A DNA stretch of 64,000 nucleotides from Candidatus Nomurabacteria bacterium (GTDB taxonomy: Bacteria > Patescibacteriota > Saccharimonadia > Saccharimonadales > Saccharimonadaceae): assembly GCA_031262695.1 (NCBI GenBank), contig JAISHF010000001.1, positions 62,001 through 126,000 on the forward strand, read 5' to 3'. Position numbers and translations under genes: made by a program. This document shows positions 20,790-63,332 of the stretch, piece after piece; positions within the stretch are counted from its first letter, which is position 1, and every line of letters begins with the position of its first letter. A model generated the notes under the pieces. That model was not told where the DNA came from and made no database searches. It saw only the letters and a program-made list of their open reading frames with translations.

Positions 20790-21138
20790 TGCGGCGGAAT
20801 TAGAAAAGTTACTCCAAGAGTATGCCGTGGAGTTAGGGGGCGCGACAGAGGAGATTTTGCACCCGAAAAACAAATATAAGAAATTATTGGTGTTTCGGAC
20901 GGCGGGCGAAGATATTGAGCCGAAAATCTTTTTGATTATTCATAAAGACTCGGAGCCGCTGGTGATTGATTTTTTGGCACACCCCGAAATCCAGAAAAAA
21001 CTGGTGGAAGAATACGAAACGGCGTCGCGAAGCAACCTGCTAGACAAAAAGCGCGCCGTGCAACTGGTGCTGACGGGGCAATTTTCACTAGAAGACGTGA
21101 AGTCGTTTATTTGGCAAAGTAAAGAAACCGTTATTTAG
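20782..21138 (+). CDS. Conserved small protein, possibly MmcQ/YjbR-like
   Basis: 118 aa, soluble. HPKNKYKKLLVFRTAGEDIEPKIFL and LVIDFLAHPEIQKKL look like an alpha/beta fold, and the end AVQLVLTGQFSLEDVKSFIWQS resembles the last strand and helix of MmcQ/YjbR proteins. The match is weak and no function is assigned. It overlaps orn by 8 nt and overlaps the convergent ldh gene by 8 nt at its end. A near copy of the dispersed 15-bp palindrome lies inside codons 10-14. Confidence 0.5.
   Translation: MPDAAELEKLLQEYAVELGGATEEILHPKNKYKKLLVFRTAGEDIEPKIFLIIHKDSEPLVIDFLAHPEIQKKLVEEYETASRSNLLDKKRAVQLVLTGQFSLEDVKSFIWQSKETVI
20809..20823 (+). repeat. 15-bp dispersed palindrome, 14/15 match
   Basis: TTACTCCAAGAGTAT, inside the small gene after orn, read as LLQEY. 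Confidence 0.7.
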
Positions 21139-22036
21139 CGGCTTCTAGCCCAGTGCGAATTGCCTCTTGCGACTTGGCAAGTTTGCGGCGTTCTAGAGCG
21201 GAAAGTTTGATGTCTAGGCGACGCTCCACGCCGTCGCGGCCGACGACGCAAGGGTAGCCGTAGTATAATCGTTCGGCGGAGTCATAGTTAGAGAGTGGCA
21301 AAACGACGCGCTCATTGGATAAAATGGCGTTGGTGATACGGGCCAAACAGATGCCGATACCGTAATAGGTGGCGCCTTTGCGCTTGATGATTTCGTAGGC
21401 GTCGGCGCGGACGCGGTCTTCAATGGCGGTCATTTGGTCGTCGTTTAGGAAGTCGCTAGCGGGCTGCATACCGATTGAGCAGAGGCTCCACGGCACAAAA
21501 CTGGTGTCGCCGTGTTCGCCCAGCACATAGGCGTTGACGCTCTTGGGGTCAACTTTGGTTTGGTGGCCGATGGTGTATTTGAGGCGCGAGCTGTCTAGCA
21601 CGGTGCCAGTGCCAATAACTTTGGAGTGGGGCAGGCCAGAATATTTCCACGCCAGCTGGGTCATTACATCTAGTGGATTGGTCACCATTAGCAGAATGCC
21701 GTTAAAGCCACTCGCCATAACCTGCTCAATCATTGGCTGCAAAATGGCGGCATTCTTTTTGACGAGATCCATACGGGTTTCACCCTGAGCTTGCGGTGCG
21801 CCAGCGGTGATAACGACAAGATTGGCATCTTTGCAATCGGAATATTTGCCGAGGCGGATGCGCATATTGCTTGGCGAGTAGCCAAGAGTAGAATGGAGGT
21901 CAAGTGCCTCGCCAGCGGCCTTCTCACGGGTGCGGTCAATCAAAAAAAGTTCATCAACCTCGGTGCGTTGATTGAGCAGCGAAAACGCATAACTCATACC
22001 TACATTACCTGTGCCGATGATAACCACCCGTTCCAT
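21131..22036 (-). CDS. ldh: L-lactate dehydrogenase
   Basis: 301 aa. Reduces pyruvate to lactate and regenerates NAD+ in fermentation. The NAD-binding start is VVIIGTGNVGMSYAFSLL, the substrate loop AGAPQAQGETRMDL carries Gln at the specificity position (lactate rather than malate dehydrogenase), and the catalytic His is in GEHGDTSFVPW. Start at MERVV is set by TATACT (22043-22048) 6 nt upstream; the longer frame to 22081 would span the promoter. Confidence 0.93.
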   Translation of the reverse strand: MERVVIIGTGNVGMSYAFSLLNQRTEVDELFLIDRTREKAAGEALDLHSTLGYSPSNMRIRLGKYSDCKDANLVVITAGAPQAQGETRMDLVKKNAAILQPMIEQVMASGFNGILLMVTNPLDVMTQLAWKYSGLPHSKVIGTGTVLDSSRLKYTIGHQTKVDPKSVNAYVLGEHGDTSFVPWSLCSIGMQPASDFLNDDQMTAIEDRVRADAYEIIKRKGATYYGIGICLARITNAILSNERVVLPLSNYDSAERLYYGYPCVVGRDGVERRLDIKLSALERRKLAKSQEAIRTGLEAAK

Positions 22037-22113
22037 ACTTGGAGTATAGCATAAACAATTTGACAATGCAAGAAAAATCATATAGAATTATGACATAAGC
22101 ATAAAGGAAGATT

Positions 22114-26910: not shown

Positions 26911-27293
26911 GATAACTCCGCATTAAAAAGTAGCACACGGACCATAGTTACTCCAAGAGTAACTAGCACAAAATAAGATAAGAAAATGAAAATTTTGGCA
27001 AATTTTGCAGATTTTTGACGATAGAGTTGGAGGGCGAGGATTGTCCAGAAAAAAGTGATTCCAAGGCTCGCGATAGGAAAAATTATAGCGTGCCACCAGC
27101 GTGCGCCGAGGTAGTAATTGACGATGCCGAGGTTAGTATAAGATGAAAGGGTGCGGAGATATTTGGGTTCAAGTAAAACGAGCGAAATAATAACCGCGGC
27201 CAATGCTAAAACCCACATAATAACTAACATAGCAGCAAGACCGCGATGCTTTTGCCAGATTTCTTTAAGGCTTGCGCGAATTTCTTGGTTCAT
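26907..27293 (-). CDS. Small four-helix membrane protein upstream of the glycosyltransferase
   Basis: 128 aa with helices at about 19-41, 62-84 and 92-125 and a basic N-terminal stretch. No family recognised. Start MNQEIRASLKEIW is chosen because TATACT (27301-27306) lies 7 nt before it. It overlaps the GT2 gene by 4 nt and is divergent from the second glycosyltransferase. One perfect copy of the 15-bp palindrome lies near its 3' end, extended to 9-bp arms. Confidence 0.6.
   Translation of the reverse strand: MNQEIRASLKEIWQKHRGLAAMLVIMWVLALAAVIISLVLLEPKYLRTLSSYTNLGIVNYYLGARWWHAIIFPIASLGITFFWTILALQLYRQKSAKFAKIFIFLSYFVLVTLGVTMVRVLLFNAELS
26948..26962 (+). repeat. 15-bp dispersed palindrome, perfect
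   Basis: TTACTCCAAGAGTAA with arms extended to 9 bp (TAG...CTA); inside the membrane gene, read as TLGVT on the minus strand. Confidence 0.85.
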
Positions 27294-30619: not shown

Positions 30620-30634
30620 TTACTCCAAGAGTAG
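30620..30634 (+). repeat. 15-bp dispersed palindrome, 14/15 match, intergenic
   Basis: TTACTCCAAGAGTAG, in the gap between the HIT gene and the PTA-like gene; the only clearly non-coding copy. Confidence 0.8.
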
Positions 30635-31317: not shown

Positions 31318-32955
31318 TCATAGCAAACTCCTAATGAAGGCGTCAAAAAGTGGGTGCGGGCGGTCGGGGCGAGAGCGGAATTCGGGGTGGGCTTGGGTTG
31401 CGACCATGAACTTCATGGATGGAGACTCCATAAATTCTACTAATTTGCCGTCAGGGCTGGTGCCAGAGACGACCAAGCCACCTTTTTTGATTTGCGGTAG
31501 GAACTTTTGGTTGACTTCATAGCGGTGGCGGTGGCGTTCCACGAGATTACTCTTGGAGTAGATTGTTGCGGTTTTGGTTTTTGGCACGATTTTAGCAGGA
31601 TAATCGCCGAGTCGCATGGTGCCACCAGTGAGTTCTAGGCCTTTTTGGTCGTTCATAATATAGATGATGTTGTTTTTGCTGTCGGCGCCGAATTCTTCGC
31701 TGCTTGCACCCTCTACCCCGCCAAGCCGAGCGGCAGCGATTGCCGCAACTTGCAGGCCAAGACAGATACCGAGGTAAGGCTTGTCATTTTGCAAGGCGTA
31801 AGTAGCAGCGGCGATTTTGCCATCAACGCCACGAGTGCCAAACCCGCCCGGCACAAGCAAACCGTCCACATCACCAAATTCACGCAAGGCAAAGTCGTGG
31901 TCAGAGCCAGCCTTTTCAGCATTAATCCAGACGATTTCGAGGTTAGTCTTGTTGGCGGCAGCGGCGGCTTTGAGCGATTCGGCAACACAAATGTAGGCAT
32001 CCTCGTTGCCAACATATTTGGCGACTAGGCCGACACGCACGGTGCGAGGGTATTTTTTAGTGCGGGCCGCGCTGATTTTGTGCCATTTTGCCATGTCGGC
32101 TTTTTTACCGCCAGCGAATTTGTCCAATATGTCTAGCACGCCTGATTGAACAAGATTCAGCGGCACATCATAGACGCTAGACACGTCTGGCAAATTGACA
32201 ACTGCGTCCTCGGGGAGGCTCGCAAAGTTGGCGATTTTGGCACAAATCTCGCGCGGAGCAGGGCGCTCGGTGCGAGCGCAAACGAGGTCAGCAATAATAC
32301 CGAAGCCACGGAGGTCGCGGAGGGCATTTTGGGCGGGCTTGGTTTTAAGTTCTTTGCTGGTATTAATCCATGGCACCCAAACGACACTGACATATAAGCA
32401 GTTTTCGATGCCGACGCGGCGGCGGAACTCGCGAATCGCCTCAATGAAACTCTGGCTTTCAATGTCGCCGACGGTGCCGCCAATCTCCACAATATGCACG
32501 TCTGAGCCTTGACTTTGCTGCGACTTTTCAATCGTATCTTGGATTAAATTGGTAAAATGTGGCACAAGTTGCACGGTGCGGCCGCCGAATTTGCCGGCGC
32601 GTTCGCTGGCGATTAGTTGGCTAAATAAATCGCCAGAAAGGGTGGTAGAGAAACGGTTAGTTTCAATATCTAGAAAGCGTTCGTAATGGCCGAGGTCAAG
32701 GTCGGTTTCGCGGCCGTCGTGGGTGACGAAGCACTCGCCGTGCTCAATCGGGTTAAGCATACCTGCATCCACATTAAGATATGGGTCGCACTTCTGAATA
32801 GAGACTTTTAGCCCCTTGGCCTGTAAGATAGCGCCGATGCTGGCGGCCGTAATACCCTTGCCAACGCCTGACAAAACCCCACCAACAACAAAAATATATT
32901 TGGCGGCTGACGCCGAATTTACTGCGTGCGTTTTTTTAGTTAACCCGTTTATCAT
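31318..32955 (-). CDS. pyrG: CTP synthase
   Basis: 545 aa, full length. Makes CTP from UTP, ATP and glutamine. The synthase domain opens with KYIFVVGGVLSGVGKGITAA (P-loop), and EIGGTVGDIESQSFIEAIREF is present; the glutaminase domain has PYLGICLGLQVA (nucleophile Cys), RHRHRYEVN and ATQAHPEFRSRP. Start lies 6 nt behind TACAAT (32962-32967). A copy of the 15-bp palindrome encodes the IYSKSNL segment, where the family normally has a similar variable stretch, so the motif is accommodated in an essential gene. Confidence 0.97.
   Translation of the reverse strand: MINGLTKKTHAVNSASAAKYIFVVGGVLSGVGKGITAASIGAILQAKGLKVSIQKCDPYLNVDAGMLNPIEHGECFVTHDGRETDLDLGHYERFLDIETNRFSTTLSGDLFSQLIASERAGKFGGRTVQLVPHFTNLIQDTIEKSQQSQGSDVHIVEIGGTVGDIESQSFIEAIREFRRRVGIENCLYVSVVWVPWINTSKELKTKPAQNALRDLRGFGIIADLVCARTERPAPREICAKIANFASLPEDAVVNLPDVSSVYDVPLNLVQSGVLDILDKFAGGKKADMAKWHKISAARTKKYPRTVRVGLVAKYVGNEDAYICVAESLKAAAAANKTNLEIVWINAEKAGSDHDFALREFGDVDGLLVPGGFGTRGVDGKIAAATYALQNDKPYLGICLGLQVAAIAAARLGGVEGASSEEFGADSKNNIIYIMNDQKGLELTGGTMRLGDYPAKIVPKTKTATIYSKSNLVERHRHRYEVNQKFLPQIKKGGLVVSGTSPDGKLVEFMESPSMKFMVATQAHPEFRSRPDRPHPLFDAFIRSLL
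31547..31561 (-). repeat. 15-bp dispersed palindrome, 14/15 match
   Basis: TTACTCTTGGAGTAG on plus, within pyrG, read as YSKSN. Confidence 0.8.
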
Positions 32956-33002: not shown

Positions 33003-35135
33003 TTAAAACGCTAAACTAGTATAATAATTATTTTGGACGATGGTTTCGGAGAGGTTGAAACGGCTGGCAACGAGTTGGTTGATGAGTTGGGCATAATTAG
33101 CAGGGATAGCGGCGGCGTCAAGGCCCTCACGTGGGACGAAAAGCTTTTTGCTGGCGTAATAGCGGCCGTAATCGCTGACCCATGAGCGGTCGGCGAAAAT
33201 GGCAAGGCCAGAGGCGGATTCGTCTAAAATATCGCGCCCCATCATCAGGCGGCTGTCAAATTTAATGCCCCAGAGGTTGAGGAGTGTCGGCAAAATGTCG
33301 GCGCTAGAACCAACTTTTTCTACGCGGGCGGTCGGCATTGACGGGTTCCAGATAATCAGATTACTGCGGTTGGCTTCAATTGTAGCGTCGCGCTCGTAAG
33401 TAGAGAGCTCATTCAGATTGTCTAGACTCATCATGTACGGGTAATGGTCGCCAGCCAGCACAATGACGGTGTTGTCTAGCTCGCCCGCATTACGGAGACC
33501 TTCTACGAGCTTGCCGACAGCAAGATCTAATTCAATTTGCGAAGCTTGATAAATCTTAGCCTGGGTAGAGAGGCTGAGTTTAGCGACGGCTTTTTTATGG
33601 CGATTAGCCACCCACTGGTCATTCCAGCTGCTGTATTCGCCATGGCCAGACATTGTCAGCAGGTAAGTCGCAAAAGGAATGCGGCTACCATCGTCATTGC
33701 GGGCTTTAGCCTTTTCGGTGATGAACGGCAAAACGGTGTCAATAAGCTCGGTATCGGACTGAATCCATTGGCTGCAAGTTCTGGCGCCGACTAGCGCGTC
33801 CATACCTTGACCACAGGCAAGAAAATCCGAAAAACCGAGCGTCGGACGAGTGGCAACGCGGTCGTAGTAGGAACTTTCGGTGAGAGTGTAGGAACTTTTG
33901 GCGTCAAAACCATTCTCGGCAAAACTATTGCCAATCGCAAGCGGAAAAGTCGTTTCACCGTCGCGCCAAGTCTTGAGCAGAGTTTGAGTTGGGAGCAGAC
34001 CCGTCAACACCTGAAACTCGCCGCCGATAGTAGATAATATATAGGGCGAATAAAAATTATCAAAAACAAAGCCGGAGTTGGCCATTTGGTAGAGGTTTGG
34101 CGTCAAGGTCTCGTCCACGGCGGCAGAATTGAAGCTCTCGGCGACGATAAGAATGAGGTTTTTGTCTTTAAGCAATCCGGTGTGAGCGTTGGTGTAGGAC
34201 GGGCTAGAACCAGCCAAAGCTTGGCTAATTTCGGCGAGTTTTTTGGGCTGAGTTTTGGCGACAGCGACAAGGTCAAGTGTAGTTTGCGGGGCATAATCGT
34301 CGGCAAGCGGGCCGTGGGCGGTCGGATCGGCGGCGGCGATGACGGTCGGCTCAAAACCGAGCATCACTTGGCGGATGTCAATCGTTTCGGTGGCGATTAA
34401 GCCAAGTTCGCGGACTTGCGCACGCATATCGCTAGACTCAAAATAGAGATAATTGGGGCTACCGAATTTTTTGCCAAAAGTTTGTAAAGTGAGAAAAACC
34501 ACCCCTGTTAAAGCAATAATTACTCCAAGAGTAAAGACGATAGTTTGCCACCATTTTTGCATTTTGAGGTGCGAAAAATTGAAAAACCAGACGGCAAAAA
34601 TTGCCGCGCCAGCCACGGCAAGAAATGCGACGACGATTGGCCAATTTTGGCCGAGTTCTTGCCAAAAAGCGGTGATGACGGGGCCGACTTCGGACTTGAC
34701 CATACCCATTTGAGCGAAGCTGGCGGGCAAGTCACGGATTTGGATGAGGGCAAATTGGGTGATAAAAAGCACGGCGAGAATAGCGCAAAAAACGGTGGCG
34801 GTAATGCGGGCAGCAAGGCGTGGCAAAAAGCTAATCAAAAAACCAATAAAGGCCCAAACGAGCGAAAAAACGGCAATTAGCCAAACGGCGCGGATACTCC
34901 AGCCGCCGAGAAAGATTTTGAGAATGATTTCGCTCACGAAGGCGGCGGCGTAGAAAATAATTGGCAAAATAAGAATATTGAGGGCAGGTTTTGCCTTTTG
35001 CTCTGGTTCTTTTTTTTGTTCTGGTTGAGTTTTAGGTTTATGAATAGGTTTCGGTGCTGGGCGAACAACGCGTTTCTTTTTAGGCGCGGGGCGACCGACA
35101 ATTAAACCTTCGGTGTTAGAGATGAGGTCATTCAT
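33003..35135 (-). CDS. LtaS-type phosphoglycerol transferase (sulfatase fold)
   Basis: 710 aa. A basic Pro/Lys-rich cytoplasmic N-terminus (residues 1-55), five membrane helices to about residue 215, then an outside sulfatase-fold domain. NLILIVAESFNSAAVDETLTPN is the metal-binding start, SPYILSTIGGEFQVLTGLLP holds the Thr nucleophile, and MSGHGEYSSWN and VIVLAGDHYPYM give later metal ligands. It builds polyglycerol-phosphate polymers such as lipoteichoic acid at the cell surface. It overlaps the ABC exporter gene by 8 nt. Confidence 0.88.
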   Translation of the reverse strand: MNDLISNTEGLIVGRPAPKKKRVVRPAPKPIHKPKTQPEQKKEPEQKAKPALNILILPIIFYAAAFVSEIILKIFLGGWSIRAVWLIAVFSLVWAFIGFLISFLPRLAARITATVFCAILAVLFITQFALIQIRDLPASFAQMGMVKSEVGPVITAFWQELGQNWPIVVAFLAVAGAAIFAVWFFNFSHLKMQKWWQTIVFTLGVIIALTGVVFLTLQTFGKKFGSPNYLYFESSDMRAQVRELGLIATETIDIRQVMLGFEPTVIAAADPTAHGPLADDYAPQTTLDLVAVAKTQPKKLAEISQALAGSSPSYTNAHTGLLKDKNLILIVAESFNSAAVDETLTPNLYQMANSGFVFDNFYSPYILSTIGGEFQVLTGLLPTQTLLKTWRDGETTFPLAIGNSFAENGFDAKSSYTLTESSYYDRVATRPTLGFSDFLACGQGMDALVGARTCSQWIQSDTELIDTVLPFITEKAKARNDDGSRIPFATYLLTMSGHGEYSSWNDQWVANRHKKAVAKLSLSTQAKIYQASQIELDLAVGKLVEGLRNAGELDNTVIVLAGDHYPYMMSLDNLNELSTYERDATIEANRSNLIIWNPSMPTARVEKVGSSADILPTLLNLWGIKFDSRLMMGRDILDESASGLAIFADRSWVSDYGRYYASKKLFVPREGLDAAAIPANYAQLINQLVASRFNLSETIVQNNYYTSLAF
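34520..34534 (+). repeat. 15-bp dispersed palindrome, perfect
   Basis: TTACTCCAAGAGTAA, within the LtaS-like gene, read as TLGVI in a membrane helix. Confidence 0.85.
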
Positions 35136-37323: not shown

Positions 37324-37566
37324 ATGTTGGAGGAATTGGGAGTGCCGCGGGCGAGGGTAAAAGTTTTGCGGTTTTTTGCGGGCGGCGAAATTGAGGTTGG
37401 GGTAAGGGAACTTGCACGGGCGTTAAAAATGAACGCTGGCAATGTACAGCGGGAGCTGGCAAAACTCACGAGTTTGGGGTATTTAGTAAAAAAATCGCAG
37501 AGCGGTGGGGTCGTTTACTCCAAGAGTAAGCGACTTGATGACCTCTGTAAAATGGTGGCGATTTGA
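37324..37566 (+). CDS. Small winged-helix DNA-binding regulator
   Basis: 80 aa, one winged-helix domain: VGVRELARALKMNAGNVQRELAKLTSLGYLVKKSQSGGVVYSKSKR follows the helix-turn-helix and wing pattern of ArsR/MarR-like transcription factors. ATG lies 6 nt behind TATAAT (37312-37317). Overlaps recJ by 4 nt. The wing is encoded by a perfect copy of the 15-bp palindrome (VYSKSK). Confidence 0.8.
   Translation: MLEELGVPRARVKVLRFFAGGEIEVGVRELARALKMNAGNVQRELAKLTSLGYLVKKSQSGGVVYSKSKRLDDLCKMVAI
37515..37529 (+). repeat. 15-bp dispersed palindrome, perfect
   Basis: TTACTCCAAGAGTAA, in the winged-helix gene, read as YSKSK. Confidence 0.85.
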
Positions 37567-44663: not shown

Positions 44664-44909
44664 ATGGCAAAAGTAAGAACCGGCATGTTCGGAAACAAAA
44701 TAGTCTATAACGACGACGGCACAAAAGTAACTCTCCGACAGGGCCTATTCACCGGTAACTACACTCTAAAGAAGGATAGAAAAACCACCGGCTCCGTTCG
44801 AGTTGGATTCCTTGGAAACTACAAAGTCAGAGAACGTGGCAAAGATACAAAAACCGTAAAGCGAAGCTTTGGGGCTAACCAATTCGCTTTAGAGAACAAC
44901 GTAAATTAG
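44664..44909 (+). CDS. Small basic beta-rich protein at the island's left end
   Basis: 81 aa, basic. Three related segments (RTGMFGNKIVYNDDG, RQGLFTGNYTLKKDRK, RVGFLGNYKVRERGKD) share a GxFxGNYxxxxR-type pattern, suggesting an internal beta-hairpin repeat. No family recognised. ATG is 6 nt behind TAATAT (44652-44657). It is the first gene of the compositionally distinct island and precedes the helicase gene by 19 nt. Confidence 0.55.
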   Translation: MAKVRTGMFGNKIVYNDDGTKVTLRQGLFTGNYTLKKDRKTTGSVRVGFLGNYKVRERGKDTKTVKRSFGANQFALENNVN

Positions 44910-44928
44910 TGGTATAATGTAGACATAT

Positions 44929-48198: not shown

Positions 48199-48818
48199 TC
48201 GAGCTTCCCGCCTCAACTATCGTCAACCGCTTCGTCCCAAAAGAATCCTTCTATAAACACGCCGCTTTCACCCCAAAACTTCGTGAAATCTTTACGGACG
48301 AAATCGAAAAAATCACCTGGACGCACAAAATCTCCCCGGCCACTCTCCCAGTAGAATCCTCCCCCGACTACCCCGAAATCGACATCTTCCATATAAAACT
48401 TAAAACTTCCGACTTAAACCAAAAAGCCATAGAACTAATCGACAAAAACATCCCCCGTCCAGTCCTATTTATCCTGGAGCGTCCGACTGGCTACAAAAAA
48501 GCGATAATCGCCGCAAAATCCGGCAAAACCATCAACCACCACTTCGCCTCCGACTGGGCAAAAGAACAAAAAATCGCCCCAACAGGGCGAACGATGAAAG
48601 CACTCTATCTCTCAATTATATCACACCTTGACGAAAAAGTCAATATCCAAGGCGAAACCACCCCTGAAAAAGAGATAGAAAACGCCAAACTCCGAAAAGA
48701 ACTAGAAGCAAAAATAGCGAAACTAACCACCGAAATCGCCAAAGAACCCGCCATAAACAAACGCCAATCCCTCGCCAAGAAGCGCCACGAACTAGAACAA
48801 AAACTCCAGACTCTCTGA
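48195..48818 (+). CDS. DUF4391-type protein, helicase partner
   Basis: 207 aa. IELPASTIVNRFVPKESFYKHA, TWTHKISPATLPV, EIDIFHIKLKT and PVLFILERPTGYKKAIIAAKS are typical of DUF4391, often found beside helicases of restriction-like loci. The C-terminal 60 residues form a charged coiled coil (KEIENAKLRKELEAKIAKLT). Function unknown; probably an accessory subunit of the helicase or Mod-Res complex. Coupled to the helicase gene (ATGA) and followed by a hairpin. Confidence 0.75.
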   Translation: MIELPASTIVNRFVPKESFYKHAAFTPKLREIFTDEIEKITWTHKISPATLPVESSPDYPEIDIFHIKLKTSDLNQKAIELIDKNIPRPVLFILERPTGYKKAIIAAKSGKTINHHFASDWAKEQKIAPTGRTMKALYLSIISHLDEKVNIQGETTPEKEIENAKLRKELEAKIAKLTTEIAKEPAINKRQSLAKKRHELEQKLQTL

Positions 48819-48827
48819 CCATTTCGT

Positions 48828-48853
48828 TGGTCTCGACGAAATGGTATTCCCTC
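48828..48853 (+). terminator. Inverted repeat after the helicase/DUF4391 pair
   Basis: CCATTTCGT (48828-48836) is followed after 8 nt by ACGAAATGG (48845-48853). There is no T run, so it may be a partial terminator or an operator before dinD. Confidence 0.45.
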
Positions 48854-48895
48854 CTGAAAATATGATATACTTATCATAAGAAAAGGAGGTAAGCG

Positions 48896-49759
48896 ATGGG
48901 AGAAAAAGAAATAGTATTATTCGAGACTATAAAACATACAAACGAAAAAGGCGAGTCCATCTGGAGCGCCCGCGAGCTCATGTCTTACCTCGGCTACGAT
49001 CGTTGGGAGAACTTCGAAAAGGCCATTCTTCGCGCGATGGATTCGTTTCAGTCAAGCAAAGCGAAAGAGTATTTAAGCATAAGCGAGCAGTTTCGTAAAG
49101 TCACGAAACAGCTCGAAAAGAAGAATCAGCATGGCGCATATACTATTTCCGTATCTGATTACGAATTAACGTATTACGCATGCTCTCTTATCGCCCAAAA
49201 CGGCGATGTCTCAAAACCCGAGATTGCAAACGCCCAAAGTTATTTCATAATCCAGACCTTCCGCCAAGAACAGCTTGACCATATGACCGACGAAGAACGT
49301 CGCCTCTATACTCGCCAGCAAGTCACCCAAGAAGACAAAAAGCTATTTGATGCAGCAAAAGCCCATGGTGTCGAAAAATATGGAACATTTTACGATGCTG
49401 GCTACCTCGGTCTTTATGGTATGCGTTCAAAAGAAATCCGCCAGAAAAAACAACTCGGAAAAGATAAAGTTCTTGATCGTGCAGGCGCAACGGAACTTGC
49501 CGCCAACCTTTTCCGTATAACTCAAACTCAAGATAAACTAAAAAATGAATTTGAAAAAGGTAACTGCCTTGGCGACTCCGCCTCTACAAAAACACATTTC
49601 GATGTCGGTCAGGAAGTCCGGAAAACTATCGAAAAAATTGGCGGAACTATGCCCGAGGAACTCCCGCCCGAAACGGAGCACATAAAAACCCTCGAAAAAC
49701 GCCTCCACCCGAAACAACTTAAAGGCGTAGCATCAAAGAAACTAAAGGAGAAAAACTAA
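48896..49759 (+). CDS. dinD: DinD-like protein (DNA damage-inducible protein D)
   Basis: 287 aa. A BRO-N-like start (WSARELMSYLGYDRWENFEKAI) is followed by the DinD signature FRKVTKQLEKKNQ, DYELTYYACSLIAQNGD and KPEIANAQSYFIIQTFRQE, and a C-terminal helical region. DinD relatives affect RecA filaments in E. coli; in islands they often accompany restriction genes. A strong AAAAGGAGG ribosome site precedes the ATG, and a TGATATACT box lies at 48861-48869. The stop overlaps the mod start. Confidence 0.88.
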   Translation: MGEKEIVLFETIKHTNEKGESIWSARELMSYLGYDRWENFEKAILRAMDSFQSSKAKEYLSISEQFRKVTKQLEKKNQHGAYTISVSDYELTYYACSLIAQNGDVSKPEIANAQSYFIIQTFRQEQLDHMTDEERRLYTRQQVTQEDKKLFDAAKAHGVEKYGTFYDAGYLGLYGMRSKEIRQKKQLGKDKVLDRAGATELAANLFRITQTQDKLKNEFEKGNCLGDSASTKTHFDVGQEVRKTIEKIGGTMPEELPPETEHIKTLEKRLHPKQLKGVASKKLKEKN

Positions 49760-51675
49760 TGGACAATCAACCGTCATTGCGAGGAGCCGAAGGCGACGAA
49801 GCAATCCAGAAATTAAATATCGACACTCCGGTGTGTCATTCTGAACTTGTTTCAGAATCCATCGCGGAATTGAAAGACTATGTTGAACGCGCCGAAGACG
49901 CGAAAGAGCATTACGACTTTACTTGGCGCGGCAAAGCCGCCGCAATCGCCGAGGCCGCCATGCCCGTGAACAAAATCCTCCGCCCCGACCCCGAAAACTC
50001 CATTGACTTCAATAACACCGAAAACCTCTATATTGAGGGCGACAATTTGGACGCCCTAAAACTCCTCCAAGAATCCTACCTCGGCGCCGTCAAAATGATC
50101 TACATCGACCCGCCCTATAACACCGGCAAAGATTTCGTCTATCACGACAACTTCCACCAAACCGCCGAAGAATACGACGAAGAAACAGGGCGAATTGACG
50201 CCGAGGGCAACAAAAACTTCAAGAAAAACGATAAAACGAACGGCCGCTTCCACAGCGACTGGCTCTCCATGATGCTCCCCCGCCTCAAACTCGCGCGCAA
50301 CCTCCTCATGGACGACGGCGTCATCTTCATCAGCATCGACGACAACGAACAAGCCAACCTCAAACTCCTCTGTGATGAGGTTTTTGGGGAGGAGAATTTT
50401 CTAGCAACAATTTCAGTCGTAAATAATCTCAAAGGGCGTTCTGACGATGAATTTTATGCAACAGCCAGCGAGTACATGTTATGTTATGCTCGGAAAATTG
50501 ACCAAGCAGTTATAAATGGCTTTGAGTTACCAGAAAACATGCAAGAAGAATATAAGTTTAATGATGGAATTAGTAGGTATAAGGAAGTATCACTACAAAA
50601 AACTGGTAAAAGCAATCGCAGAATTGATCGTCCAAACATGTATTATGAAATATATTACAATCCAGAAACCAAAGAGTTCTTTGATAAACCAGAAAGCGGG
50701 GCGTTGGCGATTCTACCAACACCCATCAACGGAGTTGATGGGCGTTGGCGATGGGGCAAGGATACCTTCCGCAAAAACAAGGACACAGAGCTCGTAGCCC
50801 GCCAAGTCGGAGAAAACTGGCGAGTTTACGTTAAAATGCGAGATGTGGTAAATGGCGAACAGCGAAAGCTAAAACCAAAAACTGTCTGGATTGACCCGAA
50901 GTATGATACTGGAAACGGTGGGCGAGAGGTAAAAAATTTATTTGGCATTGCGAATTTATTTGAAAATCCAAAATCTGTCGATTTTCTTAAAGATGCAATT
51001 ACTGCTGGCTCCGACAAAGACGCCATCATCTGCGACTTCTTCTCCGGTTCGGGAACGACCGCCCACGCCGTGATGAAACTAAACACCGAAGACGGCGGCA
51101 ACCGCAAATTCATCCTCGTCCAACTCCCCGAGGAAACGCCCGAAAACTCCGAGGCAAAGAAAGCTGGTTACGCCACCATCCCCGAAATCGCCCGCGAACG
51201 CATCAAACGCGCCGGCGAGAAAATCACCACCGAAAACCCCGACTGGCACGGCGACGCCGGCTTCCGCCGACTTGTCATTGACAGCACCAACATCAAAGAC
51301 AACATTTTTGAGCCCGCCACCACCGAAAATCAAGCCTCGCTCCTTGACAAAGTAGAAAACACCAAACCTGACCGCACCGACCTCGACCTCCTCTTCGGCG
51401 TCCTCACCGCCGTCGCCTTGCCCTTGGGCAAAAAACTTGAAACCGCGTCCGCAAACGACACACCGTATTACCTCTACGACCACGACGGCGAACTAACCGG
51501 CGTCCTCGCTTGCTTCGCCCCGACTCTCTCCCGCGAAACCATCGAAGAATTCGCCCGCCTAAAACCCAACTTAGCCGTCTTCCGCGAATCCACCTTCCCG
51601 GACTCCGCGTCAAAAATCAACCTCACCCAAATCTTCAAAAACCTCTCCCCTGATACGAAAGTGCGCGTGATATGA
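49759..51675 (+). CDS. mod: Type III restriction-modification methyltransferase (Mod)
   Basis: 638 aa. Adenine-N6 methyltransferase of beta layout: MIYIDPPYNTGKDFVYHDNF (catalytic motif IV, near residue 117) comes before ICDFFSGSGTTAHAVMKL (SAM-binding motif I, near 420). Between them residues about 205-415 form the target-recognition region, whose codon use (A/T-ending) differs from the C-rich flanks, with switches near 50371 and 51006. Residues 5-34 are translated from two intergenic-type repeats. Works with Res at 52694. It overlaps dinD by one base and rhuM by 4 nt. Confidence 0.93.
   Translation: MDNQPSLRGAEGDEAIQKLNIDTPVCHSELVSESIAELKDYVERAEDAKEHYDFTWRGKAAAIAEAAMPVNKILRPDPENSIDFNNTENLYIEGDNLDALKLLQESYLGAVKMIYIDPPYNTGKDFVYHDNFHQTAEEYDEETGRIDAEGNKNFKKNDKTNGRFHSDWLSMMLPRLKLARNLLMDDGVIFISIDDNEQANLKLLCDEVFGEENFLATISVVNNLKGRSDDEFYATASEYMLCYARKIDQAVINGFELPENMQEEYKFNDGISRYKEVSLQKTGKSNRRIDRPNMYYEIYYNPETKEFFDKPESGALAILPTPINGVDGRWRWGKDTFRKNKDTELVARQVGENWRVYVKMRDVVNGEQRKLKPKTVWIDPKYDTGNGGREVKNLFGIANLFENPKSVDFLKDAITAGSDKDAIICDFFSGSGTTAHAVMKLNTEDGGNRKFILVQLPEETPENSEAKKAGYATIPEIARERIKRAGEKITTENPDWHGDAGFRRLVIDSTNIKDNIFEPATTENQASLLDKVENTKPDRTDLDLLFGVLTAVALPLGKKLETASANDTPYYLYDHDGELTGVLACFAPTLSRETIEEFARLKPNLAVFRESTFPDSASKINLTQIFKNLSPDTKVRVI
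49772..49809 (+). repeat. GTCATTGCGAGGAG-type palindromic repeat inside mod
   Basis: Begins CGTCATTGCGAGGAG and ends CGACGAAGCAATCCAG, a well-known intergenic repeat shape found in many bacteria. Here it is translated in frame as SLRGAEGDEAIQ. Confidence 0.75.
49832..49860 (+). repeat. GTCATTCTGAA-type palindromic repeat inside mod
   Basis: ATTCTGAA and TTCAGAAT arms around CTTGT; the second common intergenic repeat type, translated as CHSELVSESI directly before the conserved Mod sequence. Confidence 0.75.
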
Positions 51676-52697
51676 AAAAGAAATCCCCCACCATCAGATC
51701 CGACGCCGCGAGTTATCTAACCTACATTACTACGACTGGTGGTAGCGATAATATTGAAATGCGTTTTGAGGATGACAACTTATGGCTTTCGCAAAAACTC
51801 ATGGCAGAGCTTTACGACGTAGAAATTCCAACTATCGCCGAGCATTTACGGAATATTTTTGAAGATGGTGAAATTGAGCGTGAGGCAACTATTAGGAAAT
51901 TCCTAATAGTTCAAACAGAGGGAAAACGTGAAGTCCGACGCGAAATCGACCATTATAGCCTCCAAGCTATTATCGCTGTCGGCTTCAAAATTAATAACCC
52001 ACGTGCCGTGCGATTTCGTCGTTGGGCGGGCGAAATTGTCCAAGAATATACCATAAAAGGCTTCGCGCTTGACGACGAACGACTCAAAGGTCACGGTGGC
52101 GGAGCATATTTCAAACAACTCCTCGCCCGTATTCGCGACATCCGCTCAAGCGAAAAAGCAATTTATCGCCAAGTCCTTGACCTTTACGCTACTAGCTCCG
52201 ACTATGACCCAAAATCTCGCGATTCGCTCAAATTTTTCAAAATCGTCCAAAATAAGTTCCATTATGCCGTCCATCGCCATACCGCAGCCGAGGTCATTTA
52301 TAATCGTGCCGATGCCGACAAAGATTTTATGGGGCTAAAATCCTTTCGTGGCGACTTGCCAGTGCTTGACGAAGTGCGAATAGCCAAAAATTATCTTGAC
52401 GAAAAAGAATTAGATAAATTAAATCGGCTTGTTTCAGCATATTTTGAACTCGCCGAGGGCAAAGCGCTTGACAATTCTATGATGTCAATGAGCGACCACC
52501 TCAAAGGGTTGGACATAATTTTAACCGCTTACAGCGAAGGTGTGCTAATCGGCACTGGTGCAATTAGCCATGAGGACGCAGTTAAAAAAGCCGAACACGA
52601 GTATCGTAAATTCCAAGTTAAAACTTTATCGCCTGTAGAAAACGATTATCTCAAATCACTAAAAGATGAGGCAAAAAAACTGGAAGGTAAAAAATGA
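51672..52697 (+). CDS. RhuM-family protein
   Basis: 341 aa. LWLSQKLMAELYDVEIPTIAEHL, REIDHYSLQAIIAVGFKIN and RAVRFRRWAGEIVQEYTIKG are the signature of the RhuM (virulence protein) family, widespread beside type I and III restriction genes. The second half is helical (HRHTAAEVIYNRADADKDFM). Biochemical role unknown. Codon use is less C-rich than the flanking mod and res, so it may be a later cassette. It is coupled on both sides by 4-nt overlaps. Confidence 0.88.
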   Translation: MKKKSPTIRSDAASYLTYITTTGGSDNIEMRFEDDNLWLSQKLMAELYDVEIPTIAEHLRNIFEDGEIEREATIRKFLIVQTEGKREVRREIDHYSLQAIIAVGFKINNPRAVRFRRWAGEIVQEYTIKGFALDDERLKGHGGGAYFKQLLARIRDIRSSEKAIYRQVLDLYATSSDYDPKSRDSLKFFKIVQNKFHYAVHRHTAAEVIYNRADADKDFMGLKSFRGDLPVLDEVRIAKNYLDEKELDKLNRLVSAYFELAEGKALDNSMMSMSDHLKGLDIILTAYSEGVLIGTGAISHEDAVKKAEHEYRKFQVKTLSPVENDYLKSLKDEAKKLEGKK

Positions 52698-55600
52698 AAC
52701 TGAAATTCAAGCACCAAAAGTTCCAAGACGACGCCACGCGAGCCGTCGCAGATATATTTACCAGTCAGCCAAACTTGTCCCGCGAGTTCTTAATTGATCA
52801 AGGCAAAACAGCACAACTATTTGAGCGACGCGGCTTTGCTAATCCCGAAATCAAACTCCGCGACGATGAGATTCTGAAAAACCTCCGCTTTGTCCAAGGG
52901 CAGAACAGCATCGCTCAACGATCGCCGCGGCTAGAGAAGTTAAACGGTAAACCTGCCTTCACCGTAGAAATGGAAACTGGCACAGGTAAAACTTACACCT
53001 ATATAAACACAATGTTTGAACTGTCTAACCGCTATGGCTGGAACAAATATATCGTCGTTGTGCCGAGCATCGCTATTCGCGAGGGTGTGCTTAAAACTTT
53101 CCAGATTACTGCCGACCATTTCGCCGATCGCTATGGCAAAAAAGCCCGCTTTTTCGTCTACAATTCCTCTCGCCTAACCGACCTTGAGACCTTCGCCGAC
53201 GACCCCAGTATAAATGTAATGATTATCAACTCACAGGCCTTCAATGCCCGCGGCGCCGATGCTCGCCGAATCTATATGGAATTAGATACTTTCCGCGGAC
53301 GAAAGCCGATTGATGTTATCGCCAGCGTCAACCCTATCGTCATTATTGACGAACCGCAAAGCGTCATTGGCGTAGAAGATAAAAAGAATATCACTCGCGA
53401 CAGCCTAAAAAACTTCAACCCGCTATTTTTTATCAATTATTCTGCCACCCACCGCGAAAACTTCAATATGGTCTATCGCCTTGATGCCGTAGATGCCTAC
53501 CAGCAAAAACTCGTCAAGAAAATCACCGTCAAAGGTGTCTCCATCGTCGGCGAAAATGCCACGAGTGGCTACCTCTACTTGCAGAGTATCAACACCTATC
53601 CAAACAAAAATCCCGACGCCACCATCGTCATGGAATATAATTCCGAAACAAAAAGCGGCGTCCATAAAAAGACCAAAATCTTCCAACTTGGCGACAATAT
53701 TTACAACCATTCCGGCGGCGTGGAAGCGTACAAAAACGGCTTTACAATTTCCGCCATCAACGACAACAATTCAGGCGTCGTAGAATTCACTGGCGGGCTA
53801 AAACTCGCAGAGGGCGAATGTGTCGGCAACGCCAACAAAGAAGATATTCGCCGCATCCAAATCCGCGAAACCATTATGAGCCATCTAGAAAAAGAACGCG
53901 AGCTTTTCCGCAAAAACATCAAAGTTTTGTCGCTCTTTTTCATTGACGAAGTCGCCAAATACCGAGGCGAAAAAGACGAAAATGGTATTTATGCCGAGAT
54001 TTTTGACCGCGAATACAAAAACGCCATTGAAGGAATCCTGAGCGGCGAACTGCCATTTCAGGCAGACGAGAGCTATCGCGAATTCTTAAAAGAATCTTTA
54101 ACAAAAACCGTGGACGCCGGCTACTTCTCCGTGGATAAAAAAGGCAAGCCAATCAACTCCAAAGAAAAAAGCACCGAAGACGACGCAAGCGCTTATGATC
54201 TTATCATGAAAGACAAAGAGCGACTGCTGTCGTTCAGGGAACCTGTTCGCTTCATATTCTCGCACTCCGCCCTCCGCGAAGGCTGGGATAACCCCAATGT
54301 TTTTCAAATCTGCACCCTCCGCGAGAGCCAAGCAACCATCAAAAAGCGTCAAGAAATCGGCCGCGGGCTTCGCCTTTGCGTCAACGCCGACGGCGAGCGT
54401 CAAGACGAGGAAAATCTTGGCTATGACGCCGTCCAAGATATCAACGCCCTAACCGTCATTGCCAACGAAAGCTACGAAACCTTCGCCCGCGACCTCCAAG
54501 ACGAATTTGCCGAAGTGATAAAAAATCGCCCGAAAAAAATCTCTCCAGAATTATTTGCCGGAAAAACCATCACGGATACCGCCGGAAATACCCACGAAAT
54601 TACCCCTGCCGAAGCCGCCCGTATTTTCGTGAAACTCGAAGACCAAGGCTTCGTCTATCAAGAGCAATTAACCGACAATTATTACAATCTAACTCCCGAA
54701 CTTAAAGATGAAAAAATCACTGAAATCCTACCCGACAATCTAAAGCCAGCCGTCGGTGGCGTGATAAATCTCATCAATTCCGTCTATGATCCGAAGAAAA
54801 ACCCAATCGTCTCTGACGCCCGAAAGCCCGTCGAACTTTACCTAGACAAAGAAAAATACGCCAGCAATACCTTTAAGGAACTTTGGGGAAATATCAACCA
54901 CAAAACCGTTTATGAAGTAAAATTCGATGAATCCGAGCTAATTGAAAAATGCGTAAAAGCCATTGACGAGCGCTTATTCGTGACGAAAACCACCGCTATT
55001 ATTGATACTGGCGGCCTACAAGTCAAAGAAGACGACATCAACATGCGAAAATACAAGAGTTCAACCGAGAATATCGTTTCGGCAACAAACTCCGAAATCT
55101 CTTTCGACCTCATCGGCGAAATCTCCGAGCGAGTAGACCTAACGAGAATAAGCACCGCTGAGATATTGACGCGTATCCATCAAGATAAATTCGCGCTATA
55201 TACGTCAAACCCCGAAGAGTTTATTCATAACGCCGCCGATCTCATCGCTGGCGAAAAAGCCGCCACCGTCGTGGAACACATTACCTACAATGTGATAAAT
55301 GAAACATGGGACAGCGAGGACATCTTTGTCAACGACACCGAAAAAGGTCAATATGGTATAAACGTAATAGACGCCAAACGCCATCTCTACGACAAACTCC
55401 GCTACGACTCAAATATCGAGAAAACTCTCGCCGAAAACATGGATGTTTCCGACAAAATCGAGCTATATATCAAACTTCCGAAGAAATTCTACATCACAAC
55501 CCCAATGGGGAAATACAACCCAGACTGGGCAATAGCAATAAAAGACGGCGATGTGAAACACATCTACTTCGTCGCCGAAACAAAAGGCAAAGAAGGTGGC

Positions 55601-55747
55601 CTCGCCTCCGCGGCATTTCACACCACAGAAATCGAAAAAGCCAAAATCGCCTGTGCCAAGAAGCACTTCGCGACCATCTCGGAAGGAAAAGTAAAATACG
55701 ACGTCATCTCAACCTACGAAGACCTCATCCGAGCAATAAGCAAGTAG
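52694..55747 (+). CDS. res: Type III restriction enzyme subunit (Res)
   Basis: 1017 aa. Translocase-nuclease that acts with Mod. Helicase motifs: VEMETGTGKTYTYI (I, near 98), VIIDEPQSVIG (II), FINYSATHREN (III), REGWDNPNVFQICTLRES (V) and KKRQEIGRGLRLCVN (VI, near 553). The C-terminal PD-(D/E)xK nuclease reads NPDWAIAI...VAETKG (near 942-963), so it looks catalytically complete. It ends the plus-strand part of the island and overlaps rhuM by 4 nt. Confidence 0.93.
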   Translation: MKLKFKHQKFQDDATRAVADIFTSQPNLSREFLIDQGKTAQLFERRGFANPEIKLRDDEILKNLRFVQGQNSIAQRSPRLEKLNGKPAFTVEMETGTGKTYTYINTMFELSNRYGWNKYIVVVPSIAIREGVLKTFQITADHFADRYGKKARFFVYNSSRLTDLETFADDPSINVMIINSQAFNARGADARRIYMELDTFRGRKPIDVIASVNPIVIIDEPQSVIGVEDKKNITRDSLKNFNPLFFINYSATHRENFNMVYRLDAVDAYQQKLVKKITVKGVSIVGENATSGYLYLQSINTYPNKNPDATIVMEYNSETKSGVHKKTKIFQLGDNIYNHSGGVEAYKNGFTISAINDNNSGVVEFTGGLKLAEGECVGNANKEDIRRIQIRETIMSHLEKERELFRKNIKVLSLFFIDEVAKYRGEKDENGIYAEIFDREYKNAIEGILSGELPFQADESYREFLKESLTKTVDAGYFSVDKKGKPINSKEKSTEDDASAYDLIMKDKERLLSFREPVRFIFSHSALREGWDNPNVFQICTLRESQATIKKRQEIGRGLRLCVNADGERQDEENLGYDAVQDINALTVIANESYETFARDLQDEFAEVIKNRPKKISPELFAGKTITDTAGNTHEITPAEAARIFVKLEDQGFVYQEQLTDNYYNLTPELKDEKITEILPDNLKPAVGGVINLINSVYDPKKNPIVSDARKPVELYLDKEKYASNTFKELWGNINHKTVYEVKFDESELIEKCVKAIDERLFVTKTTAIIDTGGLQVKEDDINMRKYKSSTENIVSATNSEISFDLIGEISERVDLTRISTAEILTRIHQDKFALYTSNPEEFIHNAADLIAGEKAATVVEHITYNVINETWDSEDIFVNDTEKGQYGINVIDAKRHLYDKLRYDSNIEKTLAENMDVSDKIELYIKLPKKFYITTPMGKYNPDWAIAIKDGDVKHIYFVAETKGKEGGLASAAFHTTEIEKAKIACAKKHFATISEGKVKYDVISTYEDLIRAISK

Positions 55748-55750
55748 TTA

Positions 55751-55999
55751 TTACTTCTTCTCTTGCGGGTAATTCTCAATCCCGATTTCTTTCAATTGCT
55801 CGATAACCCGCATCGCCTTCGTATACCCGTAATTAAACTGGGCTTGGATGCGAGAAATCGTCAGTTTTCCGTCTTCCGCCAATCTCATACTATCCGCCAA
55901 CATTTGAGGGCTGAGATCTTCAAAATTATCGTATTCGTGAAACTTAGTCTTTTTTCGCGACGCCACCCGTATTAGTTCCAAGAACTGATCGATGTCCAT
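55751..55999 (-). CDS. FtsK-gamma-like winged-helix protein
   Basis: 82 aa. SPQMLADSMRLAEDGKLTISR followed by IQAQFNYGYTKAMRVIEQLK and EIGI matches the DNA-reading gamma domain of FtsK translocases, here as a free protein without a motor. It could read short oriented DNA sites or act as a repressor. It is the last of three overlapping small genes, and convergent with res, only 3 nt away. Confidence 0.65.
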   Translation of the reverse strand: MDIDQFLELIRVASRKKTKFHEYDNFEDLSPQMLADSMRLAEDGKLTISRIQAQFNYGYTKAMRVIEQLKEIGIENYPQEKK

Positions 56000-56121
56000 G
56001 ATGGTAATAATATCTTGGTTTTGTCTCGCAGGAATACCTGTTTTGAGCTGTTTTCGGGCGACATTTGGCGCATTACCGCCATCTGGTCATTAATCATAGC
56101 ATAGATGTCTATAACCAACAT
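55972..56121 (-). CDS. Small protein, 49 aa, middle gene of a mini-operon
   Basis: A perfect AAAGGAGG ribosome site lies 5 nt before the ATG. The product starts MLVIDIYAMINDQMAVMRQM and then has a polar tail; no family recognised. It overlaps the 50-aa gene upstream by 13 nt and the FtsK-gamma-like gene downstream by 28 nt, so all three are probably made together. Confidence 0.5.
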   Translation of the reverse strand: MLVIDIYAMINDQMAVMRQMSPENSSKQVFLRDKTKILLPSWTSISSWN

Positions 56122-61124: not shown

Positions 61125-62178
61125 AAAGCCCCGTGTGTCTTCGCCCGCCAAAGATGAGGGTTGGGATGCCTTTGGCGTTAATGCGGTCGTCTACGATGTG
61201 GCGATAACTTTGCAGGGCGTCTTTGACCTCGTCGCTTTCTGACAGGTTGCGGACGCGGTCAATTTCTATCGGGCTGGCGCCAAACTCCAAAAGCCAGCTG
61301 TCTAGCAAGTTAGTGGCGGCGGTGGCATCCAGGCGTTTGATGGCCTCTTGGTAGTTGATGCCATTTTGGTCGCTAGCAGTAAAAATGCGTTCTAAAATAC
61401 GCCAGTCATAAGGCGTGCCGTCGCTTGGCTTGACTTCGGCAAGGCGAATTGCCGTTAAATAACTGGCAACAAGGCGGGAGTTCGGGAAGCGGTCGGCGCC
61501 CGTACTGGGGTTTACGATAACATAGGGAATATAGGCGACATTATAGCGGTCAAAAAAGCCGTCGGCTTGCTGGTTACGGAAGGAGGCAAGGCAGATGGCG
61601 CAGCCGGGGTCAAAAATGTCAAGGGCGGTCGCGCGGCTCGCGTCATAACTCCAATAACTGGTATTTTGTGGCAGATATTGCTTGGCGTCCCAGCGGCGAA
61701 TGCGGTCGGGGATGCCAACGAAGATTTCGCCCCATTCGGTGAACCAGCGGCCAGCGGCTTCAAGCGGGTTTTTCGGTTCGGCTTGGTCAATGCCGCAAAC
61801 ATCGGCCGAGAGTGAGCAGTTAGATGGTTGCGAAACATTGCAGGTGCCAAAAACCCAGAGCGAAAGGCCGGCTTTGGCGCCCTCAACAAGGCTCCAAACA
61901 GTCAAGGCAACGATAAGAACGGCGGCGACTTCAATGCCCGCAGAAATTGGCTTGACGAGTTTCGGCTTTCTTACGACAACTTTACTCAAAATGCTGTTTT
62001 TGATGTCGTCCTTGAAGTTGGTTTCGCATTTTTGGAGGCGGACCTTTTTCCAGACGCAGCCCCAAGCCTTTTTGAAGGTGACCCAATATTTGGCGCCGAT
62101 GTCGCGGCGAAAAATTGACAGAACCGCCACAAAAACTGAGAGCAGGGCGAGGACAATAAACGCCGCAACGCAAACCAT
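61117..62178 (-). CDS. Membrane protein with thioredoxin-like CxxC domain
   Basis: 353 aa. Helices at about 1-20 and 83-105, then an outside domain. ATALDIFDPGCAICLASFRNQ carries a CAIC pair in thioredoxin position, followed by YNVAYIPYVIVNPST, and near the end INAKGIPTLIFGGRRH gives the cis-Pro strand of DsbA/thioredoxin folds. An outside thiol oxidoreductase is likely. It overlaps the SufS-like gene by one base and the CDF gene by 8 nt, so the three form an operon. Confidence 0.7.
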   Translation of the reverse strand: MVCVAAFIVLALLSVFVAVLSIFRRDIGAKYWVTFKKAWGCVWKKVRLQKCETNFKDDIKNSILSKVVVRKPKLVKPISAGIEVAAVLIVALTVWSLVEGAKAGLSLWVFGTCNVSQPSNCSLSADVCGIDQAEPKNPLEAAGRWFTEWGEIFVGIPDRIRRWDAKQYLPQNTSYWSYDASRATALDIFDPGCAICLASFRNQQADGFFDRYNVAYIPYVIVNPSTGADRFPNSRLVASYLTAIRLAEVKPSDGTPYDWRILERIFTASDQNGINYQEAIKRLDATAATNLLDSWLLEFGASPIEIDRVRNLSESDEVKDALQSYRHIVDDRINAKGIPTLIFGGRRHTGLYE

Positions 62179-63332
62179 TAAGCCTCCAAAACCTTTCGCA
62201 TGGCGTCTTGGAACTTAGCAATATCGGATTCGCGGTTGTGCAGCCCGAGCGACACGCGGACGAGCGGCGGATAGTTGTTTTGGTGGCTCAAATAATAGTG
62301 GGCGCAAAAATAACCAGTGCGGACCATAATGTTTTCATGACTTAGTGCAGCTCCAAGCAGGTGCGAATCAAGGCCTTCCACACAAAAACTGAGGGTCGGC
62401 GAAAATTCGCGATTTAGTAATTTTATGCGATTCTGACCCCTTAAAAACTCAAAATTACTCTTGGAGTAAGCCATGAGATTTTTGGTGTTTTGCTGCATTC
62501 GCCAGTCAATCGCAGCGCCGAGGGCAATGATTTCGCCCCACGCTTGGAGACCAGCCTCAAAACGAGTGTAAATGTGGGCGGGATTTTCGGCGGAGAGTTG
62601 GAAGGTGGACTTTTCAACATCATCAACCATACCACCGCCCAGAAAATTGACTTCTAGTTTTGGCAAAAGGTCTTTATGGGCGACGATAATGCCAAGGCTT
62701 GGGGCATACATTTTGTGGGCACTGGCGCAAATGGCGTCGGCTTCGGTCTTGGCGAGGAGTTCGGCGTTGTGGGCAAGGGCTTGGGCGGCGTCAAGAATAA
62801 TAATACCTCCCTGCTGATGGATTTTTTTGACGATTTCTTTCAAGTTTTTGAGTTCGCGGCCGTCAATGTTAGAAACAGCGCCAAACACGACAATGGACTT
62901 TGTGAAATCGTGGCTAGAGTTGATGCTGCCGTCAGGTTCACGGTCAATGACTTCACGCGGGATGCCGAGCCGTTTGGCGGCGGCGATGGTGGCGAGGAAC
63001 GGCGAGTTATGTTCTAAGTTGCTGGTGATGATTTTGACGAATTGGTTTGGTGCAATTTGCGACAAGATTAAATTGAGGCCATAAGTAGTGTTGAGGGTAA
63101 AAGATGTGAAATATTCGCGTGGGCTAAGTTTGAGATATTGAAGGACTTTGGCGCGGGTGGCGGCGACTTTTTCGTCAGTTTGTTTGCCCCAAGCGTATTT
63201 GACGCGCTCGCCGCAAGAATTGAAATTTTGATAATAATCGTTAAGGGCTTGAATTACTGGGGCAGGGCGCAGGCTCTGGCAGGCCGCATCAAAATAGGCG
63301 GCGTCGGGGCTGAGATAAGCAAAATCGTCCAT
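62178..63332 (-). CDS. SufS/CsdA-like class V PLP enzyme, probable cysteine desulfurase
   Basis: 384 aa. ADAICASAHKMYAPSLGIIV holds the PLP lysine; ITSNLEHNSPFLATIAAAKR and GAVSNIDGRELKNLKEIVK follow the family; MVRTGYFCAHYYL holds the Cys that takes up sulfur. It is shorter at the N-terminus than SufS. It would supply sulfur for Fe-S clusters or tRNA thiolation. First gene of the three-gene unit; ATG 6 nt behind TATAAT (63339-63344). A perfect palindrome copy encodes AYSKSNF. Confidence 0.85.
   Translation of the reverse strand: MDDFAYLSPDAAYFDAACQSLRPAPVIQALNDYYQNFNSCGERVKYAWGKQTDEKVAATRAKVLQYLKLSPREYFTSFTLNTTYGLNLILSQIAPNQFVKIITSNLEHNSPFLATIAAAKRLGIPREVIDREPDGSINSSHDFTKSIVVFGAVSNIDGRELKNLKEIVKKIHQQGGIIILDAAQALAHNAELLAKTEADAICASAHKMYAPSLGIIVAHKDLLPKLEVNFLGGGMVDDVEKSTFQLSAENPAHIYTRFEAGLQAWGEIIALGAAIDWRMQQNTKNLMAYSKSNFEFLRGQNRIKLLNREFSPTLSFCVEGLDSHLLGAALSHENIMVRTGYFCAHYYLSHQNNYPPLVRVSLGLHNRESDIAKFQDAMRKVLEA
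62455..62469 (-). repeat. 15-bp dispersed palindrome, perfect
   Basis: TTACTCTTGGAGTAA on plus, in the SufS-like gene, read as YSKSN. Confidence 0.85.

Follow-up and report, generated by a model that had tools for sequence, protein, structure and literature searches.

A dispersed palindrome clustered around dnaA as a candidate centromere in a small lineage of Saccharibacteria

What could hold copies of one short palindrome in place across unrelated genes of a bacterial chromosome? The question is raised by a 64,000-nucleotide stretch of DNA (hereafter the window) from Candidatus Nomurabacteria bacterium of the family Saccharimonadaceae (assembly GCA_031262695.1, here G000; 652,476 bases in five contigs, C1 to C5), which comprises positions 62001–126000 of contig C5 and carries six exact and four near copies of the 15-bp palindrome TTACTCNNNGAGTAA. 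An initial annotation of the window had offered three candidate roles, namely a DNA uptake signal, a chromosome-organising site and a palindrome of the HIP1 type, of which the second fits best, the copies being clustered round dnaA and beside parAB. From sequence comparison we tentatively propose, with confidence just short of even, that these palindromes are parS sites of a chromosomal ParABS system, rewritten together with ParB in this small lineage of Saccharibacteria. The motif was not found in published papers, among which subscription journals lay mostly outside reach, and the titles and abstract openings listed held nothing on parS in Saccharibacteria or on ParB and parS in the candidate phyla radiation, subscription journals again being mostly uncovered.

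Copies, clustering and conservation of the palindrome

Within the window, ten matches to TTACTCNNNGAGTAA were found at up to two mismatches, while shuffled sequences averaged 1.5 and none of 100 shuffles reached ten. The excess extends to the whole genome, with 13 exact copies in G000 against 0 for a reversed-pattern control, and eight further copies with one mismatch (21 copies at up to one mismatch). At up to two mismatches the genome yielded 41 matches versus 24 in the control, indicating that unfiltered two-mismatch matches are mostly chance; such copies were accepted only if their centre was CAA/TTG-like, and the others were excluded from the map and from the conservation counts below. 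Among 27 copies in the G000 stretches examined, 25 lay within called open reading frames (ORFs; simple longest-ORF calls made without a gene finder), in all three phases, and two lay between them, as the initial annotation had described for coding and non-coding DNA. ORF starts stood at no fixed distance from these sites, and the carrier genes are unrelated, encoding CTP synthase, sulfatase-family, ABC transporter, RecJ-type, PilB/GspE-type and recF-like proteins, a Mur ligase and sugar-transfer enzymes.

The copies are clustered. With the contigs ordered C1-C2-C3-C5-C4 in one orientation from contig ends and synteny, an order on which the copy map depends (with C1–C2 joined through a shared tandem repeat and C4–C1 through synteny with the sister species G002), 19 of the 21 copies at up to one mismatch fell within 110 kb of dnaA versus 7.1 expected (Rayleigh p 8e-6). 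The nearest is 2.1 kb away from the DnaA domain match and falls within the recF-like gene of a dnaA-dnaN-recF-like gene order. A separate group of four copies (one exact and three with two mismatches) was found within 6.5 kb of parB, which is adjacent to parA on contig C3, and about 100 kb without CAA-centred copies separates this group from that on the dnaA side. Other long stretches of G000 also have no CAA-centred copy; overall, the motif ranges across roughly one third of the genome. When the whole pattern was rotated round the chromosome, joint closeness to dnaA and parB gave p 0.012–0.017. As observations on the assembly itself, an ORF resembling a reverse transcriptase by eye (C5:1007-1666, C3:155675-156022) stands beside a 115-bp repeat at the ends of C3, C4 and C5 that breaks the assembly, possibly a diversity-generating retroelement; in G002, short pieces of a repeat-like stretch on contig C5 (~42284-43167) match several contigs of two further species of the genus, G001 and G003.

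As GC skew shows no switch, the origin was placed from dnaA only; in the stretches examined the skew is single-signed round the G000 chromosome. At fourfold-degenerate sites the skew was positive in 27 of 27 G000 blocks for minus-strand genes and in 25 of 27 for plus-strand genes, the exceptions being the block of an island in the window (-0.40) and C2:30000 (-0.08), with some values on C3 near zero. Once oriented by synteny, G002 was consistent with this apart from a single exception at -0.08 (its contig C6 was left unoriented), as were the two G001 contigs analysed at fourfold sites, whereas in G017, a one-contig genome of another genus, the skew switches near dnaA. This single-sign skew suggests one-way replication in the genus. 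A closed Saccharibacteria genome is described with the usual two-replichore pattern (PMC6031116), and for Microgenomates a similar single-sign skew has led authors to suggest one-way replication (PMC7143001).

Sites chosen on the G000 sequence alone were compared with G002, which belongs to the same genus. Eighteen of the 21 could be aligned (C5:139867, C1:137301 and C4:71831 had no spanning alignment and were not counted), and of these 8 were identical at all 15 letters and 12 at 14 or more, against 2.6% and 11%, respectively, of 27,687 control 15-mers from the same alignments. Of the six two-mismatch sites, C3:132852 lacked a spanning alignment, and the other five matched at 15, 15, 13, 10 and 8 letters. 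Occurrence in all phases and in unrelated genes, together with conserved sites whose flanks have diverged, supports the initial view that selection acts on DNA rather than protein, and on these grounds coding conservation was rejected as the cause for most sites; it may explain the copy at C3:136561, and codon conservation may account for that at window position 40484, which is partly conserved in G001 too. The initial annotation had described constant arms around a CAA/TTG centre; in G002 this centre can vary, the 16 exact copies having CAA in ten cases, ATA in two and GGC, GAC, TAC and GAA in one each. In G001 the motif was absent at positions that could be aligned, and gapless alignments across the 26948 and recF-like sites indicate change by substitution rather than insertion. 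Across 394 sampled genomes of the family, more than one copy of the pattern was found only in G000 and G002, nine others having one match each. The 15-mer also occurs in at least 120 stretches of viral contigs, with one match each among the 80 matches listed, which we read as chance.

A second box, ACAG[AG]GG[TC] (ACAGRGGT-like), is separated from the palindrome by exactly 11 bp at 11 of the 27 sites, on either side and in either orientation. In a looser form, 15 boxes were found within 40 bp of the 27 palindromes versus 0.44 expected, and the flanks showed no other clear consensus beyond the two boxes. In seven of eight aligned cases, 7–8 of the eight box letters were identical in G002. The composite of palindrome and box matched two stretches in the genome collection, both from G002, in a scan from whose results records of G000 itself or its near relatives may be missing.

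In the window, all ten positions given by the initial annotation proved correct. Exact copies on the forward strand were found at 26948–26962 (in a 151-amino-acid ORF; 15/15 in G002), 34520–34534 (in the sulfatase-family gene; 15/15), 35799–35813 (in the ABC transporter gene; 14/15) and 37515–37529 (between called ORFs; 14/15), while those at 38536–38550 (in the RecJ-type DHH gene; 15/15) and 62455–62469 (in a 384-amino-acid gene; 15/15) lie on the reverse strand and show a TTG centre on the forward strand. Copies with one mismatch occur on the forward strand at 20809–20823 (TTACTCCAAGAGTAT; 6/15 in G002, not kept) and 30620–30634 (between called ORFs; 5/15, not kept), and on the reverse strand at 31547–31561 (in the CTP synthase gene; 14/15, the palindrome being exact in G002). 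The weak forward-strand copy at 40484–40498, in the PilB/GspE-type ATPase gene, has two mismatches (13/15). Four of these palindromes have a second box 11 bp away, namely ACAGGGGT at 34501–34508 on the reverse strand (palindrome 34520; 8/8 in G002), ACAGAGGT at 37541–37548 on the reverse strand (37515; 8/8), ACAGGGGT at 38562–38569 on the forward strand (38536; 7/8) and a degenerate TAAGGGGT at 62436–62443 on the reverse strand (62455; identical letters at the orthologous G002 site). A scan at up to two mismatches found no copy in positions 1–20808 or in the island at ~44.9–56 kb, in line with the gaps first described for 0–20 kb and for foreign DNA. The island itself (~44900–56000) has reversed GC skew and is missing from the syntenic place in G002.

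ParB residues and the parS core of relatives

A single ParB match (PF02195) was found in each of the four genomes of the genus (G000 to G003), of which G002 and G003 are incomplete. The residues through which ParB contacts parS have been named by Jalal et al. 2020 (PMC7383237), who found that residues 173 and 201 set specificity, 173 reading base 1 and 201 reading base 6. In an alignment of 21 proteins (4 of the genus and 17 of other genera), the numbering was anchored here on the GKSR..N and G..R motifs, with solved ParB and Spo0J sequences aligned as an aid. All four ParBs of the genus carry D170, Q178 and K204 where G, N and R would be expected; N178 and R204 are invariant among the 17 of other genera, and G170 occurs in 16 of these. 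None of the 21 has Q162 or R173, and the loss of these two residues is therefore not a peculiarity of the genus. Among the four, F173 and G201 occur together only in G000 and G002, which are also the only two of the four with the motif; G003 has S173 and G001 has S201.

The canonical 16-mer parS had no match at up to two mismatches in the four genomes of the genus. Its core TTTCACGTGAAA, searched as DTTTCACGTGAAAH (a pattern omitting C at base 1), gave 17 copies, carried by 14 of the 57 genomes from other genera, against three in 57 for the reversed control. All 14 carry the core next to one and the same gene, judged from its G000 relative to be a class I tRNA synthetase and probably valS, and in G017, G019 and G015 the core lies between this gene and a femAB gene, 31–35 kb from dnaA. 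We read this core as parS at a fixed address. G000 has no core at that address, and G001, G002 and G003 have no copy in their assembled sequence. None of the 17 cores is GTTTCACGTGAAAC (C at base 1 being outside the pattern), and all 21 ParBs lack R173, as would be expected if residue 173 reads base 1. Base 1 of the cores is mostly A or T and not G. In G000 the tRNA synthetase and femAB genes are apart, and the one-mismatch copy C4:88615 sits at the end of the gene just upstream of femAB; as G002 does not have this copy, nothing is drawn from its position. One ATTTCACGTGAAAT in G000, within an ORF at C3:26979 and far from dnaA, was taken as chance or a relic.

The second box was also found within 40 bp of 4 of the 17 cores, against an expectation of 0.10 based on loci elsewhere (p 4e-6). 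However, these 3-kb loci contain 20 further boxes in 40 kb, a local rate at which about 0.7 would be expected, and these are partly ValS codons; the box also resembles a ribosome-binding site. Its occurrence beside the relatives' parS core is therefore suggestive only.

Weighing the interpretations

ParB in this genus should require a centromere to act on, and for G000 and G002 the strongest candidate we identified is the TTACTC palindrome. Under the ParABS interpretation, ParB and its DNA target would have changed together in this lineage, with a ParB dimer nucleating on each TTACTCNNNGAGTAA and possibly using the ACAGRGGT box at 11 bp as an accessory contact, and the copies would mark a broad origin domain for segregation by ParA, perhaps also for condensin loading. 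In its favour stand the placing of copies near dnaA and beside parAB, their conservation within unrelated genes, the changed parS contacts of ParB, the pairing of F173 and G201 with the motif, the missing core at the address used by relatives and the agreement of the relatives' base 1 with residue 173.

Several observations weigh against this proposal. The palindrome is 15 bp long with a free 3-bp centre, while parS and the Noc-binding site (NBS) are of even length, and to our knowledge the odd-length TTACTC site is unlike any known ParB site. Six of the 18 aligned sites have no conserved counterpart in G002; these match at only 5–9 of 15 letters, so sites are either kept or gone. At two of the six, C3:131502 and C4:88615, G002 has the box without the palindrome. 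Rotation of the whole pattern gave p 0.17–0.20 for closeness to dnaA and 0.06–0.23 for parB, each taken alone. The association of F173 and G201 with the motif is a post hoc observation on four species, and the ParB recognition helix of G003 differs little from those of G000 and G002, that of G001 also being close. The G003 genome (71% complete) nevertheless has no exact copy, only one shorter match, TACTCGGCGAGTA, with a GGC centre and a degenerate near-copy, CTACTCTATGAGTGA, in its recF-like gene. G001 carries a quite different dispersed palindrome, GAAGTTGATCAACTTC / GAAGTTGCGCAACTTC, which shows no visible clustering near dnaA or parB over the 255 kb examined. Finally, 43 of the 57 genomes outside the genus, including 11 of the 17 aligned relatives with N178 and R204 in ParB, do not have the exact core, so its absence is not peculiar to the genus; these relatives may have variants of it.

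Of the alternatives, the strongest, though in our view rather unlikely, is that the palindromes are sites of another lineage-specific dimeric chromosome organiser (Noc-, SlmA- or MatP-like) that marks the third of the chromosome on the origin side. It would fit the clustering, the placement within genes and the conservation equally well, and a free 3-bp centre is a feature of matS. Such an organiser could also accommodate the centre of the copy group, about 51–67 kb to one side of dnaA, and the presence of the motif in some species but not others with nearly the same ParB helices. However, the one ParB-type match per genome gives no sign of a Noc paralogue, and inspection by eye, with partial genome coverage, found no obvious candidate among ORFs shared by G000 and G002 and not found in G001. 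The loss of parS contacts in ParB and the copies beside parAB would also be left unexplained.

A doubtful extension of the ParABS interpretation is a two-part centromere in which palindrome and ParB have been replaced from species to species within the genus while the accessory box ACAGRGGT stayed. TTACTCNNNGAGTAA would then serve two species, perhaps GAAGTTGATCAACTTC a third and the parS core some relatives, in chromosomes that may replicate one way. The core of the G001 palindrome has 36 copies genome-wide at up to one mismatch versus one in the control, and 3–4 ACAGRGGT-like boxes lie within 40 bp of the 16 palindromes in the G001 stretches examined, where 0.05–0.12 were expected, although two of these may belong to one repeated palindrome-plus-box unit.

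The remaining explanations fare much worse. Operators of a transcription-factor regulon would be dimeric palindromes of this kind, and the two copies between called ORFs might be placed for regulation, but the other 25, in every phase of unrelated genes and at no set distance from their starts, make this very improbable. The spread of a tiny mobile or repeat element could yield several identical copies and the repeated unit in G001, yet we judge it very improbable given the substitutions indicated by the two gapless G001 alignments and the want of clear common flanks beyond the two boxes. Least credible is the initially suggested uptake signal for pilus-linked competence, since despite the species-restricted word and the PilB/GspE-type and PilM genes in the window, there are only ~21–28 copies per genome, clustered, separated by long empty stretches and conserved at fixed positions.

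Few protein–DNA pairs of bacteria are as well conserved as parS and the ParB residues that recognise it, and both appear to have been rewritten here. If the ParABS interpretation is true, this lineage offers a natural case of bacterial centromere rewriting beside relatives that keep a parS-like core, and should the two-part version also hold, the identity of the centromere, nearly invariant in other bacteria, would be changing fast in this genus. The evolution of centromere specificity could then be followed with purified ParBs and short DNA, and the genus might supply an orthogonal ParB–parS pair for labelling DNA loci.

Comparison with known systems

Among known repeated sites, HIP1 is a highly iterated palindrome found genome-wide, whereas the palindrome described here, for which a HIP1-type role had also been suggested, has far too few copies and is not genome-wide. 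Similarly, DNA uptake sequences occur in hundreds of copies throughout a genome, in contrast to the 13 exact, clustered copies of G000. The parS of plasmid P1 is closer, with two kinds of box (A and B) in one centromere, although the second box here would be a putative ParB contact. The matS site of MatP has a 3-bp centre and, as described, is 13 bp long with 23 copies in 800 kb, thus resembling the present motif as a short site repeated in one chromosome domain. Sites of matS are confined to the terminus domain and go with a MatP protein, whereas the domain here includes dnaA. The NBS of Noc keeps an even-length parS-like core. It nonetheless provides a precedent within the ParB family for a site changed via residues 173 and 201 (PMC7383237), whereas in the present genus there is a single ParB-type gene and the contacts common to ParB and Noc (170, 178 and 204) have changed too. 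The sites of ParABS are palindromic, often lie near the origin and are present in multiple copies, with up to 20–23 parS in some species (PMC7333895). The present motif differs from these in sequence (that of parS being TGTTTCACGTGAAACA), in its odd length and free centre, in having a second box at 11 bp and in the breadth of its distribution, but resembles them in being a palindromic multi-copy site, with one copy a short way from dnaA and several next to parAB, in a genome encoding both ParA and ParB.

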